From positions 1-64,000 of IMG/VR virus record IMGVR_UViG_3300046163_000033: a DNA stretch of 64,000 bases, one strand, 5' to 3'. Origin of the DNA: a virus. A model generated the notes under the pieces. That model was not told where the DNA came from and ran no database searches. It saw only the letters and a list, made by a program, of their open reading frames with translations. Below, piece after piece: positions 707 to 43,213 of this stretch (positions within the stretch are counted from its first letter, which is position 1; each line of letters begins with the position of its first letter). Made by a program: the position numbers and the translations under genes.

Positions 707-714
707 ATATAGTT

Positions 715-1087
715 GGAAGGTGCTGCTGTTAGCGGCAGACTATAAGCCAGACGAGTAGCTTAATTAGGTAAGAAATAGGAGGTGAAAGCCACACTAACTT
801 ACACATAAGTGAATAGCTGGCAGAGAGACGGCGGCATACAGGTCACGTTAGGTAGATCGGTACAATTACACATTAATTTATAATTAATAGTAATGGTAAT
901 TTAATTACTGTACCAGTACAAAACAGAAATTGTGGATAAATGACAATACTAGGTAACTACCTGTCCACAACTGGTGTCTCTCATAAGGGAGTGATAAGGT
1001 ATTAAACTACTTGCACCTAATATTGCAATGTTAAAGGTACAAAGCAGATGTTAAATAGTAACGGCGGTTCGACTCCGCCCACTTCCA
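715..1087 (+). ncRNA. Structured RNA with tRNA-like ends (interrupted tRNA-Leu-like or tmRNA-like)
   Basis: This 400-base gap has no credible ORF but strong RNA structure. The 3' end is a textbook tRNA half: T-arm GGCGG-TTCGACT-CCGCC at 1063-1079, acceptor strand CACTTCC at 1080-1086, discriminator A1087, and a long-variable-arm hairpin GTTA/TAAC just before it. The 5' end GGAAG-G-TG (715-722) pairs with the acceptor strand with one bulged G, and GGCAGAC at 733-739 resembles a Leu/Ser D-arm. The anticodon arm is missing or displaced. About 300 bases of hairpins lie between. The 16 bases from A1087 onward are identical to those following tRNA-Gln. A group I intron in tRNA-Leu or a divergent tmRNA are the options; no Ala-Ala-stop tag reading frame was found. 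Confidence 0.45.
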
Positions 1088-1107
1088 CTAACATTAAATA
1101 ATTAAAT

Positions 1108-2062: not shown

Positions 2063-2135
2063 TGACTCGTGGTGTAATTGGTAACACGTCTGGTTTTGGT
2101 CCAGAAGAGTCCAGGTTCGAGCCCTGGCGAGTCAA
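2063..2135 (+). tRNA. tRNA-Gln (anticodon UUG)
   Basis: A complete cloverleaf: acceptor TGACTCG/CGAGTCA (2063-2069 and 2128-2134), a D-arm with GTGT/ACAC, anticodon stem TCTGG/CCAGA around loop TTTTGGT (anticodon TTG, reads CAA), T-arm CCAGG-TTCGAGC-CCTGG, discriminator A2135. The U1-A72 pair is typical of bacterial tRNA-Gln. CCA is not encoded. The 3' trailer ACTAACATTAAATAAT is shared with the structured RNA at 715-1087. Confidence 0.95.
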
Positions 2136-2796: not shown

Positions 2797-2969
2797 TGTT
2801 TAAACAAGATGTAATTGTGGACATTGGAAACCTTACAGGCGGAGTTAAATCGCATATGGACGGTGAAAAATACACGTTAAAAGAAATGTTAGTACGTATT
2901 GAAACATTAGAAGAACAACTAGCTGATGTAAGATACTTTTTAGCTAATCCTAAAAAATTAAATTACTAA
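2796..2969 (+). CDS. Small hypothetical protein with C-terminal coiled coil
   Basis: Encodes 57 residues from the ATG at 2796. An in-frame ATG at 2787 falls inside the repeated motif and would add three residues. The second half (MLVRIETLEEQLADVRYFLA) is a short coiled coil of the sort that drives oligomerisation. The stop overlaps the next start as TAATG. Function unknown. Confidence 0.55.
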   Translation: MFKQDVIVDIGNLTGGVKSHMDGEKYTLKEMLVRIETLEEQLADVRYFLANPKKLNY

Positions 2970-3241
2970 TGACAGAAAAACAGTATCAAAAACTACTAGA
3001 TAGAATTAAATTCGATCTATATCAGGAGTTTATTAACCCTGAAACAGCATCTTATGGTATTAAATACGTTGAAGACGAGCCTATATATGAAGGCATAATG
3101 TCTGAACGTGAAATACTACAAGACGAACTCGGTAGACTATGTACACTTCAAAACAAATTTATTGATGACGAAGAGTATGAAAAAGCTGAGATAATGAAAA
3201 ATAAAATAACTAAAATTCAAAATAAAATAGATAAATTATGA
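2969..3241 (+). CDS. Small protein with UVR-like helical hairpin
   Basis: Encodes 90 residues. The C-terminal half (about residues 55-88, LQNKFIDDEEYEKAEIMKNK) resembles the UVR helical hairpin that mediates UvrB-UvrC contacts and occurs in clamp and adaptor proteins. The N-terminal half is charged and unassigned. It overlaps the DNA ligase start by 4 bases, so the two are probably co-translated; an adaptor role in DNA repair or replication is conceivable but unproven. Confidence 0.55.
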   Translation: MTEKQYQKLLDRIKFDLYQEFINPETASYGIKYVEDEPIYEGIMSEREILQDELGRLCTLQNKFIDDEEYEKAEIMKNKITKIQNKIDKL

Positions 3242-4092: not shown

Positions 4093-4186
4093 ACTAGTAT
4101 GGCAATTATATAACGACAATATGATCAGCATGGAAGTTGCTAACATGCTACTTGATCAACATTATAACAGAGTAAATAAGACATGA
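4085..4186 (+). CDS. Very short hypothetical ORF
   Basis: A 33-residue frame overlapping the ligase stop by 8 bases and the next gene start by 4 bases. It exactly bridges the gap between two solid genes with the coupled overlaps seen elsewhere in the operon, which is the main reason to keep it. No recognisable motif. Confidence 0.35.
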   Translation: MSKLVWQLYNDNMISMEVANMLLDQHYNRVNKT

Positions 4187-4752
4187 ATATATTTTATTTA
4201 CACCCTAATCCGAATAAAGCTGCCGCTTATCATTATGACAAACACAAAGTTAAAATGATACTCGAAGCAGCCCAAATGCTCTGTACAGCTCATCATCATT
4301 ATGCTGAGTTGTATGAGTACGACGGTAGTTATATTCCTTACCGTAAAGCACATTATAATCACCCTTCAACTCAATGGGCAAGAGAAAATATGCAAACGTA
4401 TTTTTGGCTCTATGATTATATGATGGCGCTTGGTGAGGAATATACTAAACGTTATAATAAAAAGCATTTAAGTATAATTAAATGTGCTAAAGTTTTATTA
4501 AATCCTCCTGAAGGTATGCAAAATGGTCATTTCACAATGCCTCCGCAATGTATGCCCGATGAATATAAAGTATTAAACAATTCATTAAAAGCATACTGGA
4601 ACTATTATATTAACGATAAAAAATCTATAATTAATAAAAATGAAAAACCTCATACTGAGTACCCTTTTGATGTCGACGATCTCGACGTCAGACTTGATAG
4701 TAACGGCAACTATATATCACGCTACCATCAAACAAACAGACAGTACGCCTGA
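4183..4752 (+). CDS. Conserved phage protein (MNIFYLHPNP.. His-rich type)
   Basis: Encodes 189 residues. The layout MNIFYL, then H-Y-D-K-H-x-V-K-M-I-L-E-A-A-Q, an HHHY cluster, HPSTQWAR and a late MPPQCMPDEYK is a pattern I recognise from uncharacterised cyanophage and other marine phage proteins. The HPSTQWAR segment loosely recalls the pyrimidine-dimer glycosylase family (PF03013), but I do not claim that function. The conserved His, Asp and Lys residues suggest an enzyme. The last 113 bases overlap the next gene in another frame. Confidence 0.65.
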   Translation: MNIFYLHPNPNKAAAYHYDKHKVKMILEAAQMLCTAHHHYAELYEYDGSYIPYRKAHYNHPSTQWARENMQTYFWLYDYMMALGEEYTKRYNKKHLSIIKCAKVLLNPPEGMQNGHFTMPPQCMPDEYKVLNNSLKAYWNYYINDKKSIINKNEKPHTEYPFDVDDLDVRLDSNGNYISRYHQTNRQYA

Positions 4753-41013: not shown

Positions 41014-41063
41014 CTAATTAATAATTTTTGAATTATAACCTTCGTTGTATACTTTACTAAAGT

Positions 41064-43213
41064 TTAACTAACTTTTTCTTTACTAATCGGCACAGGTTTA
41101 TATTTATTTTTATTGCAAGCCATATAGCTAAGCCAGAGCTAATAGATGCATCGTGTTTTGTTCTTTTGTTTATATCAAATGCAGCCCAATCTTCTAATGT
41201 TCTTTGAAAATACATTGTACCATATTGTTCATTGTTATAACCAACAAACATTTCAATATAAGATTCAATAGCAGCAGCATGAGCTTGTTTAACATCTTCA
41301 CTAGAATTAGGTATACCACCTATTTCTTTTTCTGTAACAGATAATTTATGCATTGTTTTATCTGGTCTATTCATAGAGTAACCTCTGTAACCTCTTCTTT
41401 TAAAATGATATAACAATCTTGGCTTATTGTTTTCTGCGAGTATAGGCATACCATAAAATATACAAGCCATGAGTACATCTTCAAAAAATATTTCTGCAGT
41501 TTGAGGTCTAGCTATATATTCTAAAAAAAATAAATTAGGAGGCGCATCTTCCATGCTAAACTTAGTTAAACCGTGTAAAGATCCTTTTGATCCTCTACCA
41601 TCTACTGTTCCTGATATATCATAGCTATCACATCCAAAAGCTCCCATATGATCATTGCCAGGATATTTTCTATTATTTTTAACAAGTATTCTATTTTGTT
41701 GGTTTATATTTGGTATCCATGAAACAAGAAATCTACCTTGTTTACTTGGTACAAACATAACTGTTGTATCTTGTATTCCTTCTTCCCACTGAAAATTACC
41801 CTGTGTGACAACATTAGAGTGTTTTAAATCTTCATTATAATCTATTTGCTCGTATATTTTTGTTAAATTAAACAAAGATTGTTTTGTTTCATCTCTGAAT
41901 GCGTGTTTCTCAGTACGTGGAAACTGTCTATATAATTCATTAAGTGCATCAGGATCGTCCTTAAGACCTTCTACTTCATTTTCCCAGTGCTCGATAACAC
42001 CGATTTCAATGGGGAAAGCCATCTGGCCCTTCTTTAGGTTTTTGCGGTGTCTCAAAGACAGGTAATCCATAAGAATCAATGTATCCTTCGTAATTCCACT
42101 CCATAGGAATGAACAAGCTATATAATCCCGAGCTAGTCTGCCCATTGCGGTTTCTTCTGGTAACGTCTGAGTCATCATATAATTTTTTATAATTTCTACC
42201 TCCTTTATCTAAAGCATTTGACGTTGATCCCATCATACACTTACCTATAATTCTAGAACCTAATCGTAAACAAGTTTTTGTAACTCTCCAGTTATTTAAT
42301 ATATTGTCAGGTTTTTCCCACTTACCAGATTCATCGTGTACAAGTAGTTTTAATTTTTCACCATCATAACTGTTATCTCCTGTATTTTTCCAGTCAATAG
42401 TTGTATCTAATCCTTCTAATTCTTCTAACTGTTCGTTGCTATCTAGTTTACGTCTTGTAAATCTACTAGCTGGAACTCTGTATGCAAGTTCTGTTTTTGG
42501 CCGATCCATACCGTCTTGAATCGGCTTGAAGAAAAACGGATAGTTGACGGAAATTGGTACGATTTTATCGGTAAACATTTTCTTTGCATCAGCCCCAGAC
42601 TTTGATAAGACACCGTATCTAGCATCACTAGAGATAGTGGCAAGGTTGACAGTTTCGCCTGATGCCATGAATGAAAAACCAGACCGTCTGTTTTTGAGGT
42701 AGCACATTCCGTAGCAACGTTTATCTGCTTTACAAGCTTCCCAGAATATAAAGAATAATCTGTTTGCTTCTCTAAAATCTGCTTGCCCAACATCAATCTT
42801 GGACCACTGCAGGTACATGTAATGAGTACCAGTAATATAAGTAGCTTTACCTTTATTAGTGAACCAATAGCCTTCGTGGCGCCTAGCAAATTCTCTATCA
42901 ATATATGCATACCATTTTTCTTTAAAATCATCTGGATATTGTTTCCAGTCAAATATTGTTTTAATCTTTTTTAATGCTTAGGATACTCGTGTACTTGCCA
43001 CTTGTCGTAATCCTTGTTAACATCTTTTTCTTTTGGTAATGCTATTTTAAGATTTTGTATTTCATAAACCTCACCTATCTGACCAGTTTTAGATATAACA
43101 ATAACATCATGTTCTTTGTTATAACCATACTCCCACTTTTTAGATTTGTTTAATCTTTTTATTACATGTGGTTTTATGTGGTCAATTACTTTATATAATG
43201 TTTGCTTATACAT
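41064..43213 (-). CDS. Terminase large subunit (frameshifted)
   Basis: About 715 residues after joining frames. Order: a lead-in from 43213 (MYKQTLYKVIDHIKPHVIKR); the ATPase with YLKNRRSGFSF as Walker A-like loop (residue about 180) and LKLLVHDESGKW as Walker B; a nuclease part beginning GCDSYDISGTVDGRGSKGS with its acidic residues; and a C-terminal end restored as GLAIMACNKNKYKPVPISKE. Breaks lie near 42965 (A-run), 42015 (C-run) and 41110. It packages DNA into proheads through the portal encoded next. Confidence 0.85.

Follow-up and report, generated by a model that had tools for sequence, protein, structure and literature searches.

The DNA analyzed here (the window) comprises 64,000 nucleotides, positions 1 to 64,000 of the 69,520-base IMG/VR virus record IMGVR_UViG_3300046163_000033, and carries an array locus in the record of a marine phage. 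The region 708-1087 is noncoding and lies between the stop of the ORF at 503-706 and the start of an ORF at position 1108. Folding of 712-1090 is more stable than that of shuffled sequences (z -2.7). The original prediction treated the region as a single structured RNA, about 370 nt long, whose ends resemble a tRNA. Instead of one 370-nt fold, it is a string of stem-bounded modules on the plus strand, a small hairpin followed by elements A, B, and C, and only C, the last of the three to four modules, is tRNA-like (Table 1). The upstream Cys-rich ORF product has no Pfam match. Homologues of this ORF, with the C-terminus SVHRAWRRK or similar, immediately precede many of the lineage's arrays, and the order A, B, tRNA-like domain (TLD) together with the position after one gene is kept in many contigs. 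The number of elements per array differs between relatives, and some arrays extend over 500-980 nt.

Table 1. Features of the array locus and its surroundings in the window.
Feature	Coordinates	Strand	Basis and remarks
Cys-rich ORF, 67 aa	503-706	+	From the ORF list; directly 5′ of the array
Small stem-bounded hairpin	708-744	+	TATAGT...ACTATA, inner CTGCTG-TTAG-CGGCAG; fold z -2.7
Element A	746-821	+	Fold z -3.3; covariation in 70 cores
Insert of A (module E)	768-801	+	AAGAAATAGGAG-GTGAAAGC-CACACTAACTT; found inside T1 and T2 frames elsewhere
Element B	823-982	+	Fold z -3.8; about 35 relatives
Insert of B	852-919	+	Same insert in B of L005, L047, and L048
Element C (T1), tag-less tmRNA-type TLD, 101 nt	987-1087	+	Rfam tmRNA match; relatives
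Trailer CTAACATTAAATAAT	1088-1102	+	CTA usual after N73 of tRNAs and TLDs here
tRNA-Gln (TTG)	2063-2135	+	ARAGORN (2063-2136); Rfam tRNA, 65.9 bits; followed by CTAACATTAAATAAT

The T-arm GGCGG-TTCGACT-CCGCC (1063-1079) and the acceptor 3′ strand CACTTCC (1080-1086), both recognized earlier, are present, with A1087 next to them. The acceptor 5′ strand had been placed at 715-722. However, this sequence, GGAAGGTG, sits in the separate 708-744 hairpin, which is missing in the closest relative (L012), and the true partner is GGGAGTG at 987-993, which forms seven of seven pairs. The acceptor GGGAGTG/CACTTCC carries the alanine identity pair G3:U70 and is followed by A73 at position 1087. The D-region ATAAGGTA and a variable hairpin insert lie between the acceptor 5′ strand and the T-arm. 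About 35 other contigs retain both the GGGAGTG strand and the T-arm. As had been noted, there is no anticodon arm at C; neither ARAGORN nor Rfam at gathering level detects a cloverleaf tRNA there, and both report only the tRNA-Gln at 2063.

Covariance searches with Rfam models, of the kind suggested with the original prediction, gave a tmRNA match at C, no group I intron, and no tRNA other than tRNA-Gln. The match to the tmRNA model (RF00023) covers 987-1090 (104 nt) with 39.9 bits and an E value of 1.6e-14, a score obtained with permissive filters and below the gathering score of 47 bits. About 276 central model positions are deleted, such that the tag/mRNA-like domain and the pseudoknots are missing. 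The hallmarks of the tmRNA TLD that remain in C are the T-arm, the GG of the D-region, the lack of an anticodon arm, and a P2 stem, which is weakened here by a 6-nt deletion. The window insert in C equals that of relative L011 minus 6 nt at the junction between the D-region and P2. In L011, these 6 nt make up the 5′ strand of P2; the predicted minimum-energy fold of the window copy is without P2. On this basis, the window's own C may be partly decayed or impaired, although its acceptor and T-arm are intact.

Three types of tmRNA-like TLDs can be distinguished among the relatives, T1 (GGGAGTG, to which C belongs), T2 (GGGCGTG), and T3 (GGGGGTG). The T3 TLDs score 64.7-69.4 bits against the tmRNA model, above gathering, with about 304 mRNA-like model positions deleted. 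Among 70 TLDs with acceptors that start with GG and end with CC, G3:U70 is found in 66 and A3:U70 in four, three of which reflect a spurious nearer partner inside an insert. The search pattern for the T1 set itself includes the acceptor, so only T2, T3, and single variants, which were gathered via A and B, lend G3:U70 support free of this bias. Acceptor pair 4 changes between C-G, A-U, and G-C. A73 is present in 66 of the 67 distinct TLDs, and an ORF or a tRNA follows directly 3′ of 50 of them. A fourth tRNA-like element, D (AACTAGGT..CTAGTTA), is without G3:U70; it reads AACTAGGTATGG..CTACYGACGRGTATGAGGTTCGA..CTAGTTA, is present in L037 (2565-2780), L063, L071, and L074, and usually follows element A. 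In L034 (2004-2100), a T1 head is joined to what appears to be the T-arm part of the adjacent tRNA-Met (AGGTCGGCGGTTCGATTCCTTCCCACGCCA), a possible recombinant.

It had also been noted that C and tRNA-Gln share their trailer. This holds, and the only exact copies of CTAACATTAAATAAT in the window are those at 1088-1102 and 2136-2150. The suggestion that the sharing reflects common 3′ processing stands in part. In the array loci, CTA directly follows 64/67 TLDs and 36/43 ordinary tRNAs (the remaining seven tRNAs are followed by CAA, and none by CCA). The first bases of the shared trailer are explained by this 3′ end type, because CTA trails nearly all tRNAs and TLDs of these phages. The remainder of the 15-mer, in contrast, is probably the leader of the following ORF.

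Element A is closed by an outer stem, GCCAG/CTGGC (746-750/817-821). Inside it lies an invariant internal motif, AGTA (754-757) and GAA (811-813), followed by the stem CTTA/TAAG (759-762/806-809) and then by an inner stem. Judged by its sequence, the AGTA/GAA motif is sarcin-ricin-like, i.e., it resembles the signature of a sarcin-ricin or loop E motif. In 70 distinct cores of A, 94.8% of the cells are paired. Compensatory cells number 119 against a maximum of 47 in 500 shuffles, and the covariation score is 0.423 compared with at most 0.17 after shuffling and ≤0.072 when the partner is slid by one to three columns, controls that allow for relatedness only in part. A single inherited change is an unlikely cause of this signal, because at least four pair types are found at the inner stem. 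G-U (22 cells) exceeds A-C (three cells), which supports an RNA made from the sense strand.

Element B has a longer outer stem, GAGAGAC/GTCTCTC (823-829/976-982), and conserved blocks on both sides of its insert, GGCGGCATACAGGTCACGTTAG at 830-851, and AAAACAGAAA and GGATAAATGACAATACTAGGTAACTACC within 934-961. Judged by eye in about 35 relatives, the outer stem changes with its pairing maintained (GAGGC/GCCTC, GAGAC/GTCTC, and GAGGT/ACCTC).

Each frame (A, B, D, T1, and T2) carries one variable insert, always at the same position in the frame. The inserts are bounded by stems of their own. Closing stems of at least 4 bp are found for 89% of the inserts in A, 96% in T1, and 100% in T2, compared with 36, 44, and 32% when the 3′ ends are shuffled. 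Closing stems are less frequent in B and D, at 36 and 54% of the inserts compared with 11 and 26% after shuffling, perhaps in part because the boundaries were set less exactly in these frames. The 164 inserts form 80 clusters, and 16 of these clusters are present in two or more of the five frames. Reversed and shuffled inserts gave no cross-frame cluster, which excludes chance sharing. A 62-nt insert is 100% identical between L011 (T1) and L053 (T2), where the frame cores differ at about one-quarter of the positions, and the A frame of L016 and the T2 frame of L055 hold one and the same 54-nt insert. Module E, which occupies A in the window, is found inside T1 in L030 and T2 in L044. Moreover, nesting is common and sometimes two or three deep, as in L012, where a GTATGTGG..GGAAGTGTATTAC module lies within E within A. 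Chimeric assembly of module repeats was judged an unlikely source of these arrangements, given that the closing stems remain complementary in the sequences.

Further recurring stem-bounded modules were seen in L067, L084, L101, L102, and L110, for example CAGCGAATAAATAAC.., AACAGTAAATCGACGCCTTGGCTTC.., GGGTTAAAACACGAAGGACGG.., and GTATCACGGGTTGCAGAGTAATTAACTG... Element A of L110 and L115 holds a minimal T-arm hairpin that has a short acceptor-like stem (TGGTG..TTCGACT..CACCA), and hence T-loops serve as inserts too.

An exact search of IMG/VR with the T-arm and acceptor returned 21 loci, 19 of which have a C-type head. The other two are different tmRNA-like genes. One (L013, 5516-5961) is called by ARAGORN as a tmRNA with a 25-aa tag, on a phage contig that shares only the T-arm 25-mer; the other (L006, near 2979) resembles an ordinary tmRNA end with CCA encoded. 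Searches with the C head, B, A, and module E raised the total to about 140 loci, mostly from one phage lineage; this number stands for carriers of A, B, C, or related modules, and L023, L026, and L041 are chance 17-mer matches to the head without a T-arm. A relative of the window's terminase is encoded by 45 of 50 array-bearing contigs; identity over the best segment is 70-92% for 43 of these, and the match is lower or broken in the other two. In the window, the terminase large subunit (41057-42952) is split over overlapping frames, whereas the main frame of the relatives is open for about 735 aa. Residues 1-58 and 46-355 of the 373-aa terminase ORF match different frames of the relatives, a pattern that points to a frameshift or an assembly error in the record. 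Near the array are a possible pyrimidine-dimer glycosylase (4183-4752; Pfam PF03013, 28.3 bits) and a UvrB/UvrC-like motif just under the cut-off (2969-3241).

The host is likely a member of the Bacteroidota, since the primase/helicase encoded in the window is related to that of Cellulophaga phage phi10:1 (42% identity). Searches for homologues in cultured phages (50,697 phage records) with the window region, a T3 TLD, and A plus D gave no array homologues, only short generic T-arm or chance matches. Exact matching of one A and one T3 pattern in 84,980 bacterial and archaeal genomes gave no hit, a search that diverged copies would escape.

These results suggest that the locus specifies a noncoding RNA array of frames with swappable hairpins that ends in a tag-less TLD, and that this TLD inhibits or diverts trans-translation in the host. 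We give this reading as a whole a probability of roughly 0.4. In this model, each frame (A, B, and C) is closed by its own stem and displays one interchangeable hairpin, and in C, as a tmRNA TLD, a short hairpin would stand in for the whole mRNA-like part. Extrapolating from established tRNA and tmRNA biology, host RNase P would cut at 986/987, the CTA trailer would be removed and CCA added, and AlaRS may charge C via G3:U70. The tag-less TLD would then bind SmpB and may reach stalled ribosomes, where it offers no message, such that trans-translation would be inhibited or diverted during infection, an outcome for which there is a precedent in the literature (see below). By analogy to that precedent, the most probable role for C is inhibition of host tmRNA. 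The search for SmpB in 50 array contigs was negative, and any effect through SmpB therefore depends on the host protein. Moreover, because the P2 hairpins vary so much, binding of SmpB by the TLDs cannot be assumed.

A role as an SmpB decoy accounts neither for A, B, and D nor for the inserts common to tRNA-like and non-tRNA-like frames. Collectively, the array might represent a combinatorial RNA cassette system, in which conserved frames, several of them tRNA-like and several not, display swappable, sometimes nested hairpin ligands that are shuffled between frames and between phages at paired stems. RNA would here evolve by domain shuffling like proteins, probably in an arms race with the host, a generalization that we find plausible and put forward tentatively. 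We speculate that swapped hairpins alter the binding partners of the RNA and that their exchange is rapid since host factors or defences differ. RNA families usually correspond to one fold with local variation; here, independent frames trade whole hairpins with the pairing kept. The arrays would provide a natural library that can tell which RNA modules are portable and what each of them binds.

A possible but unlikely alternative is that the array acts as a set of decoys against host defences that sense or cut RNA. The swappable hairpins would either imitate or bind what these defences target, and stabilizing, processing, and displaying the hairpins would be the main task of the frames and the TLD. 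The very fast exchange of inserts between conserved frames, including the 62-nt insert of L011 and L053, fits such an arms race, as does the presence of phage tRNAs and TLDs adjoining the arrays. However, none of the inserts looks like a known defence target in Rfam, no partner in host defence is known, and several widely shared inserts suit functional motifs equally well.

It is less probable that the array is a large self-assembling RNA of the GOLLD or ROOL kind, for which the modules would provide the tertiary building blocks and the T-loops and sarcin-ricin-like motifs the contacts. Such RNAs are likewise encoded by phages near tRNAs, and the heavy structure and invariant loop motifs of the arrays agree with this idea. 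Yet Rfam gives no match to GOLLD or ROOL, and outside tRNA and tmRNA it returned nothing credible for the window and 12 array loci. In addition, a separate stem closes every element and arrays differ in how many elements they hold, unlike one fixed fold.

Nested insertion and the spread of short palindromes across contexts could also be expected of selfish palindromic DNA with no function as RNA, in the form of MITE- or REP-like hairpins inserting into one another and into the tRNA region. We consider this highly improbable in view of the compensatory pairing, the 22:3 excess of G-U over A-C, the invariant internal loops, and the retention of G3:U70, and because the A-B-TLD order, the gene context, and the position of the insert in the frame are all kept. 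Slightly less credible still is decay, according to which the arrays are remnants of phage-borne tmRNA genes with incidental hairpins. The 6 nt missing from the window copy of C and its score under gathering would agree with this notion, but the 67 distinct TLDs maintain the acceptor, the T-arm, and A73 with compensatory change, A covaries, and B keeps its pairing.

The options first proposed, either a tRNA-Leu interrupted by a group I intron or a complete tmRNA at 715-1087 with a hidden tag, have next to no likelihood left: the T-arm and acceptor 3′ strand are real and GGAAGGTG can pair with one bulge, but Intron_gpI has no match in 600-1200 even at E values up to 10, there is no tRNA and no anticodon arm here, the acceptor carries G3:U70, ARAGORN calls no tmRNA, the 5′ partner lies at 987 or the equivalent position in the relatives, and the 715-722 hairpin is absent in L012. 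What stands of the remaining options, a divergent tmRNA without a clear tag or a tRNA mimic, is the kind of molecule, at 987-1087 rather than 715-1087.

Among known RNAs, the closest to C are other tmRNA TLDs without a tag frame. Mycobacteriophage DS6A encodes a TLD-only tmRNA, and strong inhibition of tmRNA is reported for a similar molecule whether or not it is charged, with titration of SmpB as a possible mechanism (PMC4131195; PMC11915505). Like C, this RNA and the approximately 65-nt tag-less tmRNAs of plastids and mitochondria combine a tmRNA TLD with an alanine-type acceptor, and in DS6A it is likewise phage-borne. Compared with DS6A as described in print, the arrays differ in that many swappable hairpins take the place of P2 and the mRNA-like part, several types of TLD occur, and other modules precede the TLD in a longer array. 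If the tag-less TLDs block trans-translation, the DS6A observation would extend to a widespread group of marine phages. With bacterial tmRNA (RF00023), the TLDs share G3:U70, A73, the GG of the D-region, and the T-arm, and the T3 relatives, which pass gathering, also keep TGGTNTTGACG; in contrast, about 270-300 nt of mRNA-like domain and pseudoknots are gone, there is no tag, and the window copy stays under gathering. The tRNA-Gln of the Cellulophaga phi4:1 group and other phage tRNAs resemble the locus in the neighbouring tRNA and the type of 3′ end, whereas ARAGORN does not call C, which is without an anticodon arm.

GOLLD and ROOL are phage RNAs found near tRNA islands that form homo-oligomers (PMC12286853). 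The arrays resemble them in size, in their pronounced structure, and in being phage RNAs located near tRNAs. They differ in that neither the window nor the 12 array loci match them in sequence or covariance, and in that independent stem-bounded frames exchange their inserts. Searches of the openly licensed literature yielded no account of such frame arrays with interchangeable, nested hairpins. Tag-less TLDs were already known; what is new is the module-swapping array, which matches no described RNA family that we found.
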